Part shown: positions 734 through 39,081 of the stretch, piece by piece
Layout of the letters: each line of letters opens with the position of its first letter
Numbering within the stretch: the stretch's first letter is position 1
NCBI GenBank assembly: GCA_027006055.1
Contig: JALTKX010000204.1
Location: forward strand, 1 to 45,722
From: Calditrichia bacterium
GTDB taxonomy: Bacteria; Calditrichota; Calditrichia; Calditrichales; J004
Direction: 5' to 3'
Length of the DNA stretch: 45,722 nucleotides
Made by a program: the position numbers and the translations under genes
Notes under the pieces: generated by a model
What the model was told of the DNA's origin: nothing
The model's input: only the letters and a program-made list of their open reading frames with translations
Databases searched by the model: none

Positions 734-2437
734 ATGGCAAGGAATAACAACAAAGAAGAACCGCTGGAAAAACAGCTCTGGAAAGCCGCTGACAAACTGC
801 GTAAAAACATCGACGCAGCCGAATACAAACACATCGTTCTCGGACTAATATTTCTAAAATACATTTCCGACGCTTTCGAAGAACTGCACGAAAAACTCAA
901 AAAAGGCGAAGGCGAATATGCCGGCGCCGATCCCGAAGACCGCGACGAATACAAAGCGGAAAACGTCTTCTTTGTGCCGCCGTCCGCGCGCTGGTCTTAT
1001 TTGCAGTCACGGGCCAAACTGCCGGAAATCGGCAAGGATGTGGATGCGGCTATGGATGCCATCGAGCGGGACAATCCCTCCCTGAAGGGCGTTCTGCCCA
1101 AAGTGTTTGCCCGCGGCAACCTTGATCCGACCAGCTTGGGCGGACTCATTGACTTAATCAGTAATATTTCCATGATAAAAGGCAATGGCAAAGGCGATTT
1201 TCTTGGCCGTGTCTTTGAATATTTTCTCGGCGAGTTTGCCCTGGCCGAAGGCAAAAAGGGCGGACAGTTTTATACTCCGATAAGCGTGGTTAAACTGTTG
1301 GTCGAAATGCTGGAACCGTACAAAGGACGCGTACTCGACCCCTGTTGCGGCAGCGGCGGCATGTTTGTGCAATCGGAAAAATTTGTAGCGCAGCACCAGG
1401 GCAAGGTAAACGACATTTCCATTTACGGTCAGGAAAGCAACCTGACCACCTGGCGTTTGTGTAAAATGAATCTGGCTATTCGCGGCATTGATAGTTCACA
1501 GGTGAAATGGAACAACGAAGGTTCTTTTTTGAATGACACCCACAAAGACCTTAAAGCCGATTTTGTCATCGCCAATCCGCCGTTTAACGACAGCGACTGG
1601 TCCGGCGACCTGTTGCGCAACGACGCCCGCTGGCAATACGGCGCGCCGCCCACCGGCAACGCCAATTACGCCTGGATACAACACTTTCTTTTCCATTTAA
1701 GCCCCGGCGGCCAGGCCGGTTTTGTATTGGCCAAAGGCGCGCTTACTTCCAAAACTTCCGGCGAAGGCGAAATTCGCAAAAAGCTGGTGGAAGCCCGGAT
1801 GGTGGACTGCATCGTCAACCTGCCGGCCAAACTGTTTTTGAACACGCAAATCCCGGCGTCACTCTGGTTTTTGCGTAGAAACAAGACCGGGCGAAAGGAT
1901 GAAATTCTGTTCATTGACGCCCGCAATATGGGCCATCTGATTAACCGCCGCACCCGTGAATTTTCCGATGAAGACATCCAAAAAATAGCGCAAACCTACC
2001 ACAACTGGCGCAACATATTCCCCTCCTCTGGAGGGGTGTCCGAAGGACGGGGTGGTGGTGAATTCCCCGAGACCGAAGGACGGAGTAGTGGTAACGACAC
2101 GCTGTCCGAAGGACGGAGCAGTGGTAACGACACGCTGTCCGAAGGACGGAGCAGTGGTAACGACACGCTGTCTGAAGGACGGGGTGGTTATAAAGACGTA
2201 AAAGGCTTCTGCAAATCCGCCACCGTGGAAGAAGTAGCCGCGCTGGATTATGTGCTCACCCCCGGCCGCTATGTGGGCCTTCCCGATGACGAAGATGACT
2301 TTGATTTTAACGAACGATTTACCCGACTCACAGCGGAACTGAAAGAACAGATGCTGGAAGAAGAACGGTTGAATGTGCAGATACTGGAAAATCTAAACAA
2401 AATCATTTTGAATATGGATAGCGAAAACCATGATTAA
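734..2437 (+). CDS. hsdM: type I R-M system DNA methyltransferase subunit HsdM
   Basis: This is the modification subunit of a type I R-M system. It transfers a methyl group from S-adenosylmethionine to adenine at the site chosen by HsdS. The N-terminal HsdM_N helical domain covers about residues 10-145. The N6_Mtase core has SAM-binding motif I (DPCCGSGG, residues 202-209) and catalytic motif IV (NPPF, 281-284). [18 protein letters not shown] and [10 protein letters not shown] are typical family segments. The start follows AAGGAAGGCTAA. Residues about 429-485 are foreign: an in-frame repeat block described separately, in a loop before the conserved GFCKSAT segment. The catalytic core looks intact, so activity is plausible. 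The prophage begins 21 bp after the stop and separates hsdM from hsdS and hsdR. Confidence 0.95.
2018..2188 (+). repeat. in-frame palindromic plus 33-bp tandem repeat block inside hsdM
   Basis: The block opens with a palindrome (CCCCTCC, 3-nt loop, GGAGGGG), then a second hairpin GTCC-GAA-GGAC, then GGGGTGGT. About three 33-bp tandem copies follow (11 codons each, reading [11 protein letters not shown]), each rebuilt around CCGAAGGA, and the block closes with another GGGGTGGT. It is open in the hsdM frame. The same opening modules are the ends of the DUF559 insertion in hsdR. It looks like a nuclease-free remnant or non-autonomous copy of that element that later expanded by slippage. Confidence 0.85.
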
Positions 2438-32648: not shown

Positions 32649-33005
32649 ATGGATAAAGAAGATATCAAAAAAAGAACTAAAAAGTTGGCTATTCAGATTA
32701 TAGAATTTTGCGATACTTTGCCAAGACAAACAAAGTATTTTGTCATTGAAAAGCAACTAATACGTTCGGCAACTTCTGTCGGCGCCAATTATCGTGCCGC
32801 CTGTCGTGGAAAATCTAAAGCAGATTTTATCGCTAAATTAGGCATTGTAGAAGAAGAAGCGGACGAAACGCTTTATTGGTTGGAATTGATCGTTGAATTG
32901 GATAATCATTATCGTGAAAGAGTAACTCCACTGTACAAAGAAATGAATGAAATACTTTCTATTGTTGTGGCAAGCAAGAAGACGGCAAGGAAAAACAAAA
33001 AATAG
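32649..33005 (+). CDS. four-helix-bundle protein (S23/23S rRNA intervening-sequence family)
   Basis: A 118-residue helical protein. It shows the family hallmarks LAIQIIEFCDTLP, KQLIRSATSVGANYRAACRG, KADFIAKLGIVEEEADETLYWLEL (in two pieces) and a basic tail. Relatives were first known as the ORF in intervening sequences of bacterial 23S rRNA genes and form pentamers. The function is unknown, but nucleic-acid binding is often suggested. ATG 32649 (MDKEDIKK) is preferred over the open-frame ATG at 32610, which would translate the left direct repeat. The gene lies between 23-bp direct repeats, as if inserted as a cassette between ORF6N and hsdS. Confidence 0.88.
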   Translation: MDKEDIKKRTKKLAIQIIEFCDTLPRQTKYFVIEKQLIRSATSVGANYRAACRGKSKADFIAKLGIVEEEADETLYWLELIVELDNHYRERVTPLYKEMNEILSIVVASKKTARKNKK

Positions 33006-33022
33006 ATTTACGATTTAGGATC

Positions 33023-33045
33023 TTCGATTTTCGATTGGCGATTTT
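33023..33045 (+). repeat. right copy of 23-bp direct repeat flanking the four-helix-bundle gene
   Basis: Partner of 32623-32645 with one mismatch. It lies in the gap before hsdS, which also carries further degenerate GATTT(T/A)CGATT units (33003-33055). Confidence 0.8.
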
Positions 33046-33062
33046 CGATTTGAAGGAATTTT

Positions 33063-34274
33063 ATGAAGGACAATTGGAAAACATATAAAATTAAAGATGT
33101 TGTTGAAGTTGTTATGGGACAATCCCCACCTTCAATTACATACAATGACAAAAAAAATGGATTACCTTTTTATCAAGGCGTTGTTGATTTTGGAAGAAGA
33201 TTTGTTAATGAAAGGATTTATTGTACTGAACCAAAAAAAATAATAGATGAAAACTTTGTATTATTAAGTGTAAGAGCGCCTGTCGGAAAAGTTAATCTAA
33301 CAAAACGAAAATGTGCAATCGGGCGGGGAAATGCTGGACTTAGAATGAAAAATGGTGAAAAATTATTTTTATTCTATTTACTAAAGTATTATGAAGATAA
33401 TTTTCATTCGAATTCAGAAGGAACGGTATTTTCTTCCATAAACAAATCGACAATCGAAAATCTCGAAATCGAAATTCCTCCTGTTTCCGAGCAAAAAGCC
33501 ATTGCCGCGGTACTCTCCAGCCTGGATGACAAAATAGACCTATTGCACCGCCAAAACAAAACCCTGGAAGCCCTGGCCGAAACCCTGTTCCGGCAGTGGT
33601 TCATCGAACCCTTCGACCCCGCTCAGGGCGGGAAAGCGCAGGATGATTGGGAAGAAGTTAGTCTATTTGATGCAATTGAATTAGTAGGTGGTGGCACTCC
33701 TAAAACATCCATCTCTGATTATTGGAATGGAAATATCAATTGGCTATCTGGCGGTGATATAGCAGCGAGTCATAAAGGGATTATTGTACATACTGAAAAA
33801 ACAATCACGGAAAAGGGATTAGAAAATAGTTCAACTAAGTTATTACCTGAATTTTCTACAGTTATATCTGCACGGGGAACAGTTGGTAAATACTGCATAT
33901 TATCTAAGCCAATGGCTTTTAGTCAATCAAACTATGGAATAAAACCCAAATTTTCAGATTGCTATTTTTTTACATATCTATTGATAGCGCATTCTGTTGA
34001 AGAGTTAAAGTCAGCTGCCTATGGAAGTGTCTTTGATACGATTACAACAAATACATTCAAAGAACACATGCTATCTCTCCCAAAACCAGAAGTCATTAAG
34101 GATTTTGAAAATGAAGTGAAGCCATTATTTAAAAAAATATTAAATAACCAATTACAAATCCGCACGCTGGAAAAACTGCGCGACACCTTGCTGCCGAAGT
34201 TGATGAGCGGGGAAGTGCAGGTGAAAATGTCTGAACCACAGATGGGCGCAGATGAATTGATTGCGCAGATGTAA
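33063..34274 (+). CDS. hsdS: type I R-M specificity subunit HsdS
   Basis: A 403-residue subunit that reads the bipartite target sequence. Two target-recognition domains are present: the first about 1-140 (VEVVMGQSPPSITYND to IENLEIEIPPVSEQKAI), then a conserved helix (LDDKIDLLHRQNKTLEALAE), and the second about 193-355 (AIELVGGGTPKTSISDYW to HMLSLPKPE), then a closing helix (LRDTLLPKLMSGEV). The recognition domains are AT-rich and the helices GC-richer, a common sign of domain shuffling. The linker after FRQWFIE carries an extra PFDPAQGGKAQDD. GAAGGAATTTT precedes ATG 33063. Confidence 0.93.
   Translation: MKDNWKTYKIKDVVEVVMGQSPPSITYNDKKNGLPFYQGVVDFGRRFVNERIYCTEPKKIIDENFVLLSVRAPVGKVNLTKRKCAIGRGNAGLRMKNGEKLFLFYLLKYYEDNFHSNSEGTVFSSINKSTIENLEIEIPPVSEQKAIAAVLSSLDDKIDLLHRQNKTLEALAETLFRQWFIEPFDPAQGGKAQDDWEEVSLFDAIELVGGGTPKTSISDYWNGNINWLSGGDIAASHKGIIVHTEKTITEKGLENSSTKLLPEFSTVISARGTVGKYCILSKPMAFSQSNYGIKPKFSDCYFFTYLLIAHSVEELKSAAYGSVFDTITTNTFKEHMLSLPKPEVIKDFENEVKPLFKKILNNQLQIRTLEKLRDTLLPKLMSGEVQVKMSEPQMGADELIAQM
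33611..33645 (+). repeat. short palindromic in-frame insert in the hsdS linker
   Basis: CCCGC-TCAGG-GCGGG forms a 5-bp hairpin inside the codons PFDPAQGGKAQ, between the central helix and the second recognition domain. The peptide PFD-AQG recurs in translated repeats of several FCB genomes, as I recall. In a variable linker, so the case for an insert is moderate. Confidence 0.45.
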
Positions 34275-34367
34275 AAACATTTGAAAGTAGCGGGTTTAAT
34301 AAAATGAAATGGATACAATATTTGATAAATTTTTTTGAAAATCTGTGTAATCCGAAAATCATAACAT

Positions 34368-34388
34368 AATCTGCGGTTCAGACAATGG
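34368..34388 (+). repeat. left copy of 21-bp direct repeat flanking the GxxExxY gene
   Basis: A 21-bp sequence beginning AATCTGCGG and ending GACAATGG, identical to 34841-34861; the unit length is 473 bp. The ATG of the GxxExxY gene lies at the end of this copy. Confidence 0.9.
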
Positions 34389-34795
34389 GTGAAGAATATA
34401 AATATAAAGATTTAACCCATAAAATCATCGGTTGCGCCATGGCGGTTCATAATACGCTGGGCAATGGGTTCCAGGAGGTTATCTATCAAAGGGCCCTGGC
34501 GATTGAGCTGGCGCAGGCCGGGCTTGACTTTCAACGGGAATTGGCAATGCCCATCTTTTACAAGGAACAGCAGATCGGTACCCGACGGGTTGATTTTCTT
34601 GTTGAAAATAAAATTATGGTTGAATTAAAAGCCATTACCCAGCTCGAAAAAGTTCACCTGGCTCAAGCACTAAATTATTTGGAAGCATACAAACTGGAAA
34701 TTGGTTTATTGATAAATTTTGGCAACACTTCACTGCAATTCAAAAGAATTATCAATGAACGGAAATTGAAACGAAGTAAAGAATCAAAGGAATAA
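34385..34795 (+). CDS. GxxExxY protein (PD-(D/E)xK_3 nuclease-like)
   Basis: A 136-residue protein of the GxxExxY family. The name-giving motif is GNGFQEVIY near residues 27-35 (G-x-x-E-x-x-Y inside), followed by ALAIELAQAGLDFQRE and the nuclease-like core RRVDFLVENKIMVELKAI, with Asp and Glu-x-Lys in the positions of PD-(D/E)xK enzymes. Such genes occur singly in many genomes and their role is unknown. It separates hsdS from hsdR and lies between identical 21-bp direct repeats, so it looks like a late insertion. The C-terminal tail is basic. Confidence 0.9.
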   Translation: MGEEYKYKDLTHKIIGCAMAVHNTLGNGFQEVIYQRALAIELAQAGLDFQRELAMPIFYKEQQIGTRRVDFLVENKIMVELKAITQLEKVHLAQALNYLEAYKLEIGLLINFGNTSLQFKRIINERKLKRSKESKE

Positions 34796-34840
34796 AATCT
34801 GCAACCCCCTGAATCAGCGGAATCAAATAATCTGCGCTCC

Positions 34841-34861
34841 AATCTGCGGTTCAGACAATGG
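34841..34861 (+). repeat. right copy of 21-bp direct repeat flanking the GxxExxY gene
   Basis: Identical to 34368-34388, ending 10 bp before the hsdR start. The ATG in this copy (ATGGATGTTCAAG) runs into hsdR's leader, so the repeat seems to represent the original hsdR upstream sequence. Confidence 0.9.
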
Positions 34862-34871
34862 ATGTTCAAGA

Positions 34872-37800
34872 ATGAAAAAAATAACCGAGTCCGACATCGA
34901 AACTTTAGCTATTGAATTACTGGAATCCCTTGGCTATCAATACATCTACGGCCCGGACATCGCCCCTGATGGCGACCGGCCGGAACGTTCATCTTTTGAA
35001 GATGTGCTTCTTCTGGAACGGCTGCAAACTTCCCTGCGGCGCATCAATCCCACGTTGCCCTCTTCGGCCATCGAAGACGCCGTCAAACACATTCAGCGCA
35101 TCCATTCCCCGGAACTGATTACGAACAACGAAACCTTTCACCGCATGCTCACCGAAGGCGTCAAGGTCAGCTATCAAAAGGATGGCAAAGAACGCGGCGA
35201 CCTGGTCTGGCCGGTGGATTTTAAAAATCCCGAAAACAACGATTTTGTGGTCTGCAACCAATTCACGGTTATTGAGAACAATATCAACAAACGTCCGGAC
35301 GTCATTCTTTTTGTCAACGGTCTGCCGCTGGTGGTCATCGAACTGAAAAATCCGGCCGATGAAAACGCCACGGTCAAATCGGCTTTTAAACAGATTCAAA
35401 CCTACAAAAGCGCCATACCGTCTCTGTTTACCTACAACGGTTTTTGCGTCATATCCGACGGTCTGGAAGCGCGCGCCGGAACCATTTCTTCGGGCTACAG
35501 CCGTTTTATGGCCTGGAAAACGGCTGATGGCAAAAAGGAAGCGTCGCCGCTTATCGGGCAATTGGAAACGCTGATCAAAGGCATGCTCAATAAGGAAACC
35601 TTGCTGGACTTGATCCGCTATTTCATCGTTTTCGAAAGGAATAAAAAGGAAGATTTGAAGACCGGCATTACCAACGTTGAAACCGTTAAAAAGCTGGCCG
35701 CCTACCACCAGTATTACGCGGTGAACCGGGCGGTGGAATCCACCCTGCGCGCAGCAAACTATTCCCCTCCTTTGGAGGGGTGGCAGACGAAGTCTGCCGG
35801 GGTGGTAAATTCTCCTTCTGTGGAAGAGCGCCAGACGAAGTCTGCCGGGGTGGTAAATTCTCCTTCTGTGGAAGAGCGCCAGACGAAGTCTGCCGGGGTG
35901 GTAAATTCTCCTTCTGTTGAAAAGCACCAGACGAAGTCTTACGGGGTGGTTAAAACCCCTCCGTCGGAGAGTGGCTATACACAATCAGGCGGCGTGGAAC
36001 CTCCCTCACCTTCAGAAGGATCATCAAAAACCGGAAAAATCAAAAGAAACTCCAAAAACTATTTTAGCCTTCCCTACAATCCCAAATTAAAAGAAAGAGC
36101 CAGGGAATTGCGGAAAGCAGGCAATCTTTCCGAAGTGCTTCTCTGGCAACATTTAAATAAAAAACAGTTCAAAGGATATGATTTTGACCGTCAAAAAATC
36201 ATCGGAAATTATATCGTCGATTTTTATTGCGGTAATTGTAATGTGGTTATTGAAGTAGATGGTAGCAGTCATTTGGACAAGCAAGAATATGACGAAGCGC
36301 GTGACCGTTTCTTGGAATCCCTGGGACTAACAGTTATTCATATTCCGGCGAAAGATGTTCTTAAACGGTTGGATAGTGTGTTGGAAATGCTTCACCACCA
36401 CCCTGCATTGACGGGCTCTGGTGACCAGGGCGTAAAAGACCTCCCCGCCCTAAAGGGCACCGGTGCTCAAGGTGTAAATGACCACCCCGCCCTAAAGGGC
36501 ACCCCTCCAACGGAGGGGAATTTGGTAAAGGAAGCGCCGGAGAGTTATGGGGTACCGGGGGTAAGTTTGCAACCCACCGGCGACCGACGCGGCGGCGTGG
36601 TCTGGCACACGCAGGGCAGCGGCAAATCACTTTCCATGGTTTTTTATACCGGAAAGATCGTATTAAAACTGGACAACCCGACCATCGTCGTCATTACCGA
36701 CCGCAACGATCTGGACGATCAGCTCTTTGATACTTTTGCCGCATCCAAACAATTGCTGCGTCAGGAACCGGTTCAGGCAAAAAATCGCGGGCATCTCAAA
36801 GAACTGTTAAAAGTTGCTTCCGGCGGCATTGTGTTTACCACCATTCAGAAATTCCAGCCGGACCCGCCTGCGCGTGGAAGCACGCGGGCAGGTGAAGGCA
36901 ATGTGTATGAAGAACTCTCGGGACGCAGGAACATCGTGGTGATTGCCGACGAAGCGCACCGCACCCAATATGGCTTTAAAGCCAAAACGATTGATGATAA
37001 AGATGAAGGTGGCAACGTCATCGGCAAAAAAACGGTTTACGGTTTTGCCAAATACCTGCGCGACGCCCTGCCCAATGCCACCTATTTGGGATTTACCGGC
37101 ACGCCCATCGAAAAAACCGATAAAAACACGCCTGCCGTTTTCGGTAATTATATTGATATTTACGATATCGCCATGGCTGTGGAAGACGGCGCAACGGTGC
37201 GTATTTTTTATGAAAGCCGTCTGGCGAAAATTCATTTGAGCGAAGAAGGCAAACGTTTGGTTAAGGAACTGGACGAAGAACTTAAAAAAGATGATCTCAG
37301 CGAAACGCAAAAAGCCAAAGCCAAATGGACGCAGCTGGAAGCGCTGGTCGGCAGTAAAGACCGCGTGAAGCGTGTTGCCAAAGATATCGTTTCCCACTTT
37401 GAAGCGCGGCAGGAAGTTTTTGAAGGCAAAGGGATGATCGTCGCCATGTCGCGCCGCATCGCTGTTGAACTGTATGATGAAATTATCAAACTGCGTCCGC
37501 AATGGCACAGCGACGACCTGAGCAAAGGCGCCATCAAAGTGGTAATGACGGCGGCGTCTTCCGATGGCCCGGAACTGGCCAAACACCATACCACCAAAGA
37601 ACAGCGCCGCGCCCTGGCCGACCGCATGAAAGACCCGCAGGACGAAATGAAACTGGTGATTGTGCGGGATATGTGGCTGACCGGCTTTGACGTGCCCTGC
37701 CTGCACACGCTTTATATCGATAAACCCATGCAGGGGCACAACCTGATGCAGGCCATTGCCCGTGTCAATCGCGTTTACAAAGACAAACCCGGCGGCTTGA

Positions 37801-38867
37801 TTGTAGATTATCTCGGCATCGCTTCCGATTTGAAAAAGGCCTTATCTTTTTATTCCGAAAGCGGCGGCAAAGGCGATCCAACCGTAACACAGGAAAAAGC
37901 CGTTCAACTCATGTTGGAAAAACTGGAAGTGGTTTCAAACATGTTCTTTGGCTTTAATTATGAAGATTATTTCACGGCGGACACATCGCAAAAACTTTCC
38001 ATTATTCTATCCGCCGAAGAACACATTCTCGGTTTGGAAAACGGCAAGAAACGCTATGTGGATGAAGTGACCGCTTTATCAAAAGCGTTTGCCATTGCCA
38101 TTCCGCACGAACAGGCTATGGACGTCAAAGATGAAGTGGCCTTCTTTCAGGCGGTCAAAGCCCGGCTGGTAAAATTTGAAACACCCGGCCCCGGCAAAAC
38201 CGATGAAGAGCTGGAAACCGCCATCCGTCAGGTCATCGACAAAGCTTTGGTTACAGATAAAGTGATCGACGTGTTTGACGCAGCCGGAATCAAAAAACCG
38301 GATATTTCCATCCTTTCGGAAGAATTTCTTCTGGAAGTCAAAGGAATGAAACACAAAAATATCGCCATTGAAGTGCTTAAAAAACTTTTGAATGATGAAA
38401 TTAAGTCGCGCGCCAAAACCAATTTGGTGCAAAGCAAATCCCTGATGGAAATGCTTGAAAAGGCCATTCTGAAATATCACAACAAAATTATCACCGCCGC
38501 CGAGTTCATCGACGAATTAATCAATCTGGGCAAAGATATTCAACAAATGGACAAAGAGCCGCAGGAAATGGGGCTGTCCACTTTTGAATATGCTTTTTAC
38601 ACGGCCATAGCCAACAACAAAAGCGCCCGGGAACTGATGCAAAAAGAGAAGTTGCGGGAATTGGCCATTGTTCTTTTTGAACGTGTAAAACAAAATGCCA
38701 GCATCGACTGGACAATAAAAGAAAGTGTGAAGGCAAAGTTAAAAGTGATTGTAAAAAGAACCTTGCGTCAATACGGCTACCCGCCGGACATGCAAAAGCT
38801 GGCCACGGAAACGGTTTTAAAACAAGCTGAACTCATCGCCAGCGAATTAACAAAAGAAAAAGAATAG
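34872..38867 (+). CDS. hsdR: type I R-M restriction subunit HsdR with inserted DUF559 nuclease domain
   Basis: A 1331-residue motor and nuclease subunit; without the insert it would be about 1060 residues, the usual size. The N-terminal nuclease has Asp143 (RPDVILF) and Glu157-Leu-Lys159 (VVIELKN). The helicase starts after residue 570: Walker A HTQGSGKS (579-586), DEAH in VVIADEAHR, GFTGTPIE and QAIARVNR. Between these, residues about 297-569 are foreign: repeats, then a complete DUF559 domain at about 396-507, then inverted repeats. A second small palindromic insert lies before DEAH (36867-36892). The frame is intact throughout. Whether the enzyme still folds and cuts is open. Confidence 0.93.
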   Translation: MKKITESDIETLAIELLESLGYQYIYGPDIAPDGDRPERSSFEDVLLLERLQTSLRRINPTLPSSAIEDAVKHIQRIHSPELITNNETFHRMLTEGVKVSYQKDGKERGDLVWPVDFKNPENNDFVVCNQFTVIENNINKRPDVILFVNGLPLVVIELKNPADENATVKSAFKQIQTYKSAIPSLFTYNGFCVISDGLEARAGTISSGYSRFMAWKTADGKKEASPLIGQLETLIKGMLNKETLLDLIRYFIVFERNKKEDLKTGITNVETVKKLAAYHQYYAVNRAVESTLRAANYSPPLEGWQTKSAGVVNSPSVEERQTKSAGVVNSPSVEERQTKSAGVVNSPSVEKHQTKSYGVVKTPPSESGYTQSGGVEPPSPSEGSSKTGKIKRNSKNYFSLPYNPKLKERARELRKAGNLSEVLLWQHLNKKQFKGYDFDRQKIIGNYIVDFYCGNCNVVIEVDGSSHLDKQEYDEARDRFLESLGLTVIHIPAKDVLKRLDSVLEMLHHHPALTGSGDQGVKDLPALKGTGAQGVNDHPALKGTPPTEGNLVKEAPESYGVPGVSLQPTGDRRGGVVWHTQGSGKSLSMVFYTGKIVLKLDNPTIVVITDRNDLDDQLFDTFAASKQLLRQEPVQAKNRGHLKELLKVASGGIVFTTIQKFQPDPPARGSTRAGEGNVYEELSGRRNIVVIADEAHRTQYGFKAKTIDDKDEGGNVIGKKTVYGFAKYLRDALPNATYLGFTGTPIEKTDKNTPAVFGNYIDIYDIAMAVEDGATVRIFYESRLAKIHLSEEGKRLVKELDEELKKDDLSETQKAKAKWTQLEALVGSKDRVKRVAKDIVSHFEARQEVFEGKGMIVAMSRRIAVELYDEIIKLRPQWHSDDLSKGAIKVVMTAASSDGPELAKHHTTKEQRRALADRMKDPQDEMKLVIVRDMWLTGFDVPCLHTLYIDKPMQGHNLMQAIARVNRVYKDKPGGLIVDYLGIASDLKKALSFYSESGGKGDPTVTQEKAVQLMLEKLEVVSNMFFGFNYEDYFTADTSQKLSIILSAEEHILGLENGKKRYVDEVTALSKAFAIAIPHEQAMDVKDEVAFFQAVKARLVKFETPGPGKTDEELETAIRQVIDKALVTDKVIDVFDAAGIKKPDISILSEEFLLEVKGMKHKNIAIEVLKKLLNDEIKSRAKTNLVQSKSLMEMLEKAILKYHNKIITAAEFIDELINLGKDIQQMDKEPQEMGLSTFEYAFYTAIANNKSARELMQKEKLRELAIVLFERVKQNASIDWTIKESVKAKLKVIVKRTLRQYGYPPDMQKLATETVLKQAELIASELTKEKE
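35762..36520 (+). mobile_element. 759-bp in-frame DUF559 element with inverted palindromic ends
   Basis: Left end: TTCCCCTCC-TT-TGGAGGGGTG, then hairpin GGCAGAC-GAA-GTCTGCC, then GGGGTGGT. Right end, on the opposite strand: TTCCCCTCC-GT-TGGAGGGGTG, then hairpin GCCCT-TT-AGGGC, then GGGGTGGT. Inside are about 3.5 tandem 48-bp units (16 codons) on the left and a degenerate set on the right, around a DUF559 (Vsr-like PD-(D/E)xK) domain with Glu421, Asp450 and Glu461. The domain has no start codon of its own, so it is only made as part of HsdR. The length is 253 codons exactly. Confidence 0.85.
36867..36892 (+). repeat. palindromic insert before the DEAH box of hsdR
   Basis: CCTGCGCGTG-GAAG-CACGCGGGCAGG, a hairpin with a two-base bulge, in codons for DPPARGSTRAGEG. 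HsdR proteins normally have a short acidic linker here between TIQKF and the DEAH strand, so the segment looks inserted in frame. Confidence 0.65.
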
Positions 38868-39081
38868 GTTTTTGGGGTTAAAATAAATATTAAGCGAAGG
38901 GCTGTCACGCTGGCCTTTCCTCTTTCGATAAATATAACACAGACCATTAAAGCCTTGTCCCCCATTATATATCAGAATATAAAATCGTTAATATGAGGGG
39001 CAAATGCCTTGAAAAAGGCAGTCTTAGGCATTATCTTGTTTTTTCAATGTTCTTTTCTTTCCGTTATAATTTTGGAGTGAT
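38868..39081. other. intergenic gap after the R-M operon
   Basis: A 214-bp AT-rich gap between hsdR and the META lipoprotein. It contains GCCTTGAAAAAGGC (a short hairpin at about 39006-39019) and a TATAAT at 39065-39070 too close to the next start to be its usual promoter. No gene or clear terminator was seen. Confidence 0.5.

Follow-up and report, generated by a model that had tools for sequence, protein, structure and literature searches.

The window, a stretch of 45,722 nucleotides from a Calditrichia bacterium, encodes a type I restriction-modification (R-M) system (Table 1). Its hsdR is stop-free throughout and encodes 1331 aa, in which Pfam and PADLOC identified the PD-(D/E)xK nuclease, SF2 helicase and C-terminal domains of a type I HsdR (HSDR_N, residues 4-207; SWI2_SNF2, 570-807; T1RH-like_C, 997-1324), together with a DUF559 domain between the nuclease and the helicase. 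No PADLOC model covers the DUF559 domain, and Rfam returned zero matches over window 33000-39000. A Mu-like transposable prophage (window about 2450-33000), with genes for a transposase, DNA transposition protein, terminase, head protease, endolysin, tape measure and anti-repressor, splits the locus between hsdM and hsdS; in G011, a genome of the same order but another family, the hsdM-hsdS distance is about 1.6 kb. The PDDEXK_3 gene is flanked on both sides by a repeated sequence (AATCTGCGGTTCAGACAATGG) and is possibly another mobile nuclease unit. HsdS has FDPAQGGKAQDD (window 33612-33647) in the linker that follows its first specificity half; this peptide is similar to a translated repeat of another family. 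The small insert in the helicase part of HsdR is missing from the G011 orthologue, as judged by protein alignment.

Table 1. Features of the R-M locus and of the elements within it.
Feature	Window coordinates	Strand	Basis
hsdM, type I methyltransferase, same system as hsdR	734..2437	+	ORF; PADLOC MTase_I 650 bits
Palindromic element without DUF559, in frame in hsdM: one full arm, then partial tandem units	2017..2187	+	
hsdS, specificity subunit	33063..34274	+	Pfam Methylase_S; PADLOC
PDDEXK_3 (GxxExxY-type) nuclease gene, between hsdS and hsdR	34385-34795		
hsdR, type I restriction endonuclease subunit with in-frame insert	34872..38867	+	ORF; Pfam; PADLOC REase_I 1292.6 bits
DUF559 palindromic element, in frame in hsdR	35761..36521	+	Inverted arms; linker empty in 78 homologues
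Left arm: ATTCCCCTCC-TTT-GGAGGGGTG + hairpin GCAGAC-GAA-GTCTGC + CGGGGTGGT	35761..35806	+	DNA fold z -4.5
Tandem array, four 48-bp units, left (5') end of element	35761..35952	+	
DUF559 nuclease domain (PD-(D/E)xK, Vsr/EDxHD-like), HsdR residues 405-507	36084..36392	+	Pfam, alignment, structure
Right arm, inverted copy: ATTCCCCTCC-GTT-GGAGGGGTG + hairpin CCCTTTAGGG + CGGGGTGGT	36478..36521	-	
Small palindromic insert PPARGSTRAG, in frame in HsdR helicase part, other repeat type	about 36864..36893	+	Protein alignment

Anatomy of the insert and selection on its nuclease

The first-pass annotation had described a stop-free block at 35762-36520, in frame in hsdR, with inverted palindromic ends that contain a variable hairpin. 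Both observations held: the block measures 759-761 bp (35761-36521), and its outer arms (35761-35782 and 36500-36521), of 22 nt each, are inverted and 95% complementary. Each full arm is composed, in this order, of the palindrome ATTCCCCTCC-nnn-GGAGGGGTG, a second hairpin and GGGGTGGT, and the second hairpin differs in sequence between the arms (GCAGAC-GAA-GTCTGC on the left versus CCC-TTTA-GGG on the right). Single-stranded DNA folds of the arms beat those of shuffled sequences (z -4.5 left and -2.5 right; -4.5 to -2.1 for the arms overall), and the inverted-arm structure is beyond a chance pattern. The four tandem units at the left end are followed by a fifth, decayed one; the hsdR element of G011 has fewer units, and the unit number always differs by whole codons.

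The DUF559 domain inside the block is complete, matching PF04480 with 102.9 bits against a cut-off of 20.6 over profile positions 2-104 of 109. The conserved E421, R440, Q441, D450, E461, D463 and H467 are all present, as they are in 78-80 of 80 relatives; the catalytic Asp450 and Glu461, already recognised in the first-pass annotation, are kept in 79/80 and 80/80 DUF559 sequences, respectively. The domain had also been said to lack a start codon, which is correct for ATG, but GTG codons in frame exist. Its AlphaFold model has a pLDDT of 90.7, and a model of HsdR 1-690 with the insert was uninformative (pLDDT 45.5). By profile search and Foldseek, the closest solved structures were 3HRL and I-Bth0305I, followed by PvuRts1I and Vsr. 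The match to I-Bth0305I (3R3P; profile E 4.3e-4; Foldseek E 2.2e-3, probability 1.0, TM 0.71 by target) indicates that the DUF559 catalytic domain is homologous to this homing endonuclease. An extended DNA-binding region beside DUF559 was not found, as the insert has no further Pfam domain and the arms encode low-complexity spacers; a Y1 (HUH) transposase was likewise not detected by Pfam in the insert, DUF559 being the sole enzyme found. Viral contigs yielded no relative of the window's DUF559.

We compared HsdR with 80 homologues from many phyla, of which 78 were readable across the insertion site, a linker that is hypervariable in both length and sequence. The first-pass annotation had named DUF559 at this place in unrelated homologues as evidence against its reading; the domain occurs at the linker in 0/78, and a single orthologue, that of G011, carries the element at the identical site. 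The comparison placed the insertion in the linker between RAxGY and ESPxSYG, where it seems to replace a few host residues, but the exact borders that the first-pass annotation had hoped to obtain in this way could not be drawn by DNA alignment because the host linkers vary. A search for empty sites, suggested there too, found the linker empty in the 78 homologues and related elements absent from congeneric genomes (see below), but neither an empty site exact to the base nor a target-site duplication, since linkers and intergenic sequence of the hosts diverge too far.

To evaluate selection we used the window's hsdR and its G011 orthologue, for which dS is about 1.5 in the flanking HsdR parts and about 1 in DUF559. 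dN/dS was 0.099 for DUF559 (117 codons), 0.079 for HSDR_N and 0.035 for the helicase, and reached 0.57 and 0.92 in the arm-encoded spacers, which span few codons. As the DUF559 value is near those of HSDR_N and the helicase, the nuclease is under constraint, and its surroundings are drifting. The codon comparison thus indicates that DUF559 is under purifying selection inside HsdR, with arms and spacers nearly free to vary.

Related elements in other genes and genomes

Further copies of the terminal palindrome, which the first-pass annotation had proposed to look for, turned up both within the hsdM gene of the window's genome and on either side of a DUF559 gene in G030, a genome of the same class but another family. 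The G030 gene is free-standing, has an ATG start, is 61% identical and adjoins type I R-M genes; it is bracketed by the same arms as the HsdR insert, with the ends in opposite orientation. In a DUF559 tree, which has few columns and uncertain deeper forks, the two HsdR inserts are sister to this gene (support 100/97) and belong to a clade of 20 (98/88) whose other members are all free-standing genes. The only perfect palindrome copy elsewhere in the window's genome is the one in hsdM (2020-2036), which is in frame; at this position G011 hsdM carries one unit, and 16/21 HsdM sequences have a short empty linker. Since the arm type is confined to this R-M locus, both in the window's genome and in G011, it probably arrived with the locus and looks imported rather than active there. 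The G030 copy, too, has type I R-M genes as neighbours, and at present the element is probably carried along with loci of this kind. The same HsdM linker holds unrelated in-frame repeats without DUF559, including VIPAQAGIQ and HSELDSES, in Bacteroidetes (L051), Sulfurovum (L112) and Nitrosomonas (L115), and these alignments point to the linker as a hot spot for in-frame insertion.

DUF559 inserts were also detected in an Eco57I-like methylase of G021, the plasmid homologues of which are colinear without the insert; in hsdS of G037, where the insert is cut by the contig end; in a plasmid-borne PglX-like methylase of Pseudanabaena galeata, in which two arm pairs are nested; and in a frameshifted DUF1156 methylase of Synechocystis B12. 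Empty or uninterrupted homologues were found for the last two. All the arm-bearing in-gene inserts that we saw are in R-M or methylase genes, a bias that reflects five or six cases, found partly in DUF559 searches and partly by eye. One more candidate host, in which DUF559 lies in a methylase-like C-terminus (L192), turned out to be a hicA/methylase remnant and was not counted. We rejected the idea that free-standing DUF559 is linked to methylase genes in general, as a methylase-like motif is near only about 4/103 loci. In G006 (C1:4107000-4112000) DUF559 lies within a probable intein, recognised by a weak Intein_splicing match, with Gly/Ile-rich repeats ahead.

The bracketing of DUF559 genes was then surveyed in two sets of loci, two further phyla with too small samples being left out. 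In the first set, 57 loci drawn from the phylum of the window plus some distant genomes, an inverted flank match of >=16 was found for 39% of the true flank pairs versus 1.8% of mismatched pairs (p 2.8e-18), and the second set, of 27 loci from a second phylum, repeated the excess (41% versus 4.8%, p 2.4e-11). A best inverted match of >=14 was present in 40/84 DUF559 genes (48%) versus 0/87 neighbouring genes (Fisher p 8.5e-16), a contrast that was robust to flank length; about half of the DUF559 loci have no strong bracketing arms. An arm alignment in which one row, the left arm of G011 hsdR, had been picked wrongly was kept out of the pair counts. The arm sequences are widely different between elements yet match within each element, which argues for a functional pair. 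Related elements are present in at least two other bacterial groups. In four genomes (G044, G094, G095 and G004) the arms are dispersed repeats that far outnumber the 1-4 DUF559 genes: BLAST gave tens of pieces in each genome, although most places enter this number twice, one arm being the inverted copy of the other. The element of G078 is not found between the same gene pair in the congeners G074, G075 and G077 (with ~1.5 kb less in G075), and that of G004 is absent from the same gene pair in its congener G005; neither comparison gave base-exact borders. In G081 (C46:4944-5923) two equal-scoring DUF559 genes are 656 bp apart, probably by a recent tandem duplication. In E. coli, the DUF559 gene ycjD, between sapF and fabI (L169-L175), is present with its region in 3334/5426 genomes (about 61% of complete genomes). 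We rejected ycjD as a population-level empty site, as the alternative alleles examined carry an efflux operon after sapF, a larger replacement and no clean excision.

Origin of the insert

We consider it likely that the block represents a palindromic mobile element bearing DUF559, driven by a homing-type nuclease, that entered HsdR in frame. Mobility had been inferred in the first-pass annotation; the free-standing gene with the same ends and the common bracketing by inverted palindromes agree with it, but in the window's genome the arm does not extend beyond the R-M locus. The element would consist of a compact Vsr/EDxHD-type nuclease gene between two inverted ~45-bp double-hairpin repeats of REP/MITE type. 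DUF559 would drive its mobility by cutting DNA, with host repair copying the element into the break, and the structured ends may serve as recognition or repair sites; solo ends would persist as dispersed palindromes, such as the hsdM copy. Entry into the variable nuclease-helicase linker of HsdR would have been in the reading frame that is open right through the element, followed by loss of its own ATG and by inheritance together with the R-M locus. The embedded domain may still cut DNA in the HsdR complex. More broadly, and with a confidence that approaches an even chance, we propose that arm-bracketed DUF559 genes are an undescribed class of autonomous mobile elements in several bacterial phyla and the source of many REP-like palindromes, the in-frame copies being kept mainly in R-M and methylase genes, with the nuclease preserved as a second catalytic domain.

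Two diverged HsdR proteins keep DUF559 under strong purifying selection (dN/dS 0.099 at dS about 1) and with intact catalytic residues, which would also fit a domesticated fusion, in which DUF559 is now a working accessory nuclease of HsdR, for example on modified or mismatched DNA, and is kept for the better restriction that it gives. The location of all observed arm-bearing in-gene inserts in R-M or methylase genes points the same way, as does the similarity, albeit distant, to PvuRts1I, an enzyme specific for 5hmC DNA. However, only a single HsdR insertion event, common to two genomes, is known, the DUF559 linkers are flexible and fast-changing, and purifying selection may reflect a selfish nuclease gene or selection against a toxic or misfolded insert. 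We regard such a fusion as a serious possibility, though somewhat doubtful; it is compatible with the mobile-element explanation, as a later stage.

It is unlikely that DUF559 is a passive passenger, caught in a composite-like manner between two copies of palindromes that another enzyme, such as a transposase acting in trans, spreads. The many arms without DUF559 in the same genomes, and the VIPAQAGIQ/HSELDSES-type repeats at the same hsdM linker, are in line with this view, but none of the 87 neighbouring genes is similarly bracketed, and the palindromes thus prefer DUF559 specifically, in an association seen with divergent arm types and in no fewer than two phyla. An intein with a DUF559 homing nuclease might come to mind, since DUF559 does occur in inteins, with the weak splicing match around it in G006, and since PMC9403480 treats a DUF559 gene under inteins. 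Pfam found no Hint/intein match in HsdR, however, and DUF559 is accompanied there only by Pro/Gly/Ser-rich arm-encoded spacers and in-frame tandem repeats, making this reading very improbable. An assembly chimera or a pseudogene might be suspected in a draft assembly of 298 contigs, but an independent genome, G011, has the same insert at the same site, with flank dS above 1, the frame kept and constraint visible, and we give this suspicion hardly any credence.

Relation to known elements and implications

DUF559 has been placed among the EDxHD homing endonucleases (PMC9403480), and Caulobacter VsrA, a DUF559 protein, is a Vsr-like nuclease, so that DUF559 can act in repair (PMC12907096). The element shares a homologous catalytic domain with EDxHD/Vsr-like homing endonucleases (I-Bth0305I, PDB 3R3P; PMC3943268). 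These reside in introns or inteins and have long DNA-binding regions, whereas here the protein is about 105-130 aa, has no such region and is bracketed by inverted palindromes. The first-pass comparison with Rickettsia palindromic elements (Ogata 2000, 2002), the known case of palindromes retained in proteins (PMC10969869), is fair as an analogy: here too, palindromes are in frame in coding genes and kept in the protein. The Rickettsia elements are about 150 bp and nuclease-free, unlike the complete nuclease between inverted arms and the free-standing copies reported here; the hsdM copy fits this short enzyme-free type, while the HsdR insert, carrying DUF559, does not.

With REP/REPIN-RAYT (TnpA-REP) systems the elements share multi-copy dispersed palindromes and few copies of one bracketed protein gene, the dispersed gene-free palindromes being present in G044, G094, G095 and G004; the window's genome has one extra copy only. 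RAYT is a Y1 HUH transposase, whereas the bracketed protein here is a PD-(D/E)xK-type nuclease. Like bacterial MITEs, the elements are short, have inverted structured ends and lie within and between genes, but no parent DDE transposase was recognised, and DUF559 is what the candidate autonomous partner encodes. Known relatives exist for each part, and it is the combination that appears to be new: searches of the open-access literature gave no account of palindrome-bracketed DUF559 genes or of a restriction enzyme with an insert of this kind.

Many genomes have scattered REP-like palindromes, for which we know of no established means of spread outside the RAYT-linked families. A nuclease gene that, in at least two phyla, is specifically bracketed by such palindromes is a testable candidate for driving this spread, and DUF559, still an unnamed Pfam family, gains a testable genomic role. 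As the HsdR case suggests, in-frame entry into a restriction enzyme is possible for such an element, with preservation of its nuclease, and defence enzymes could acquire nuclease domains in this way. Several unrelated repeat families have entered the HsdM linker, which would thereby serve as a natural guide to where type I systems tolerate insertions.
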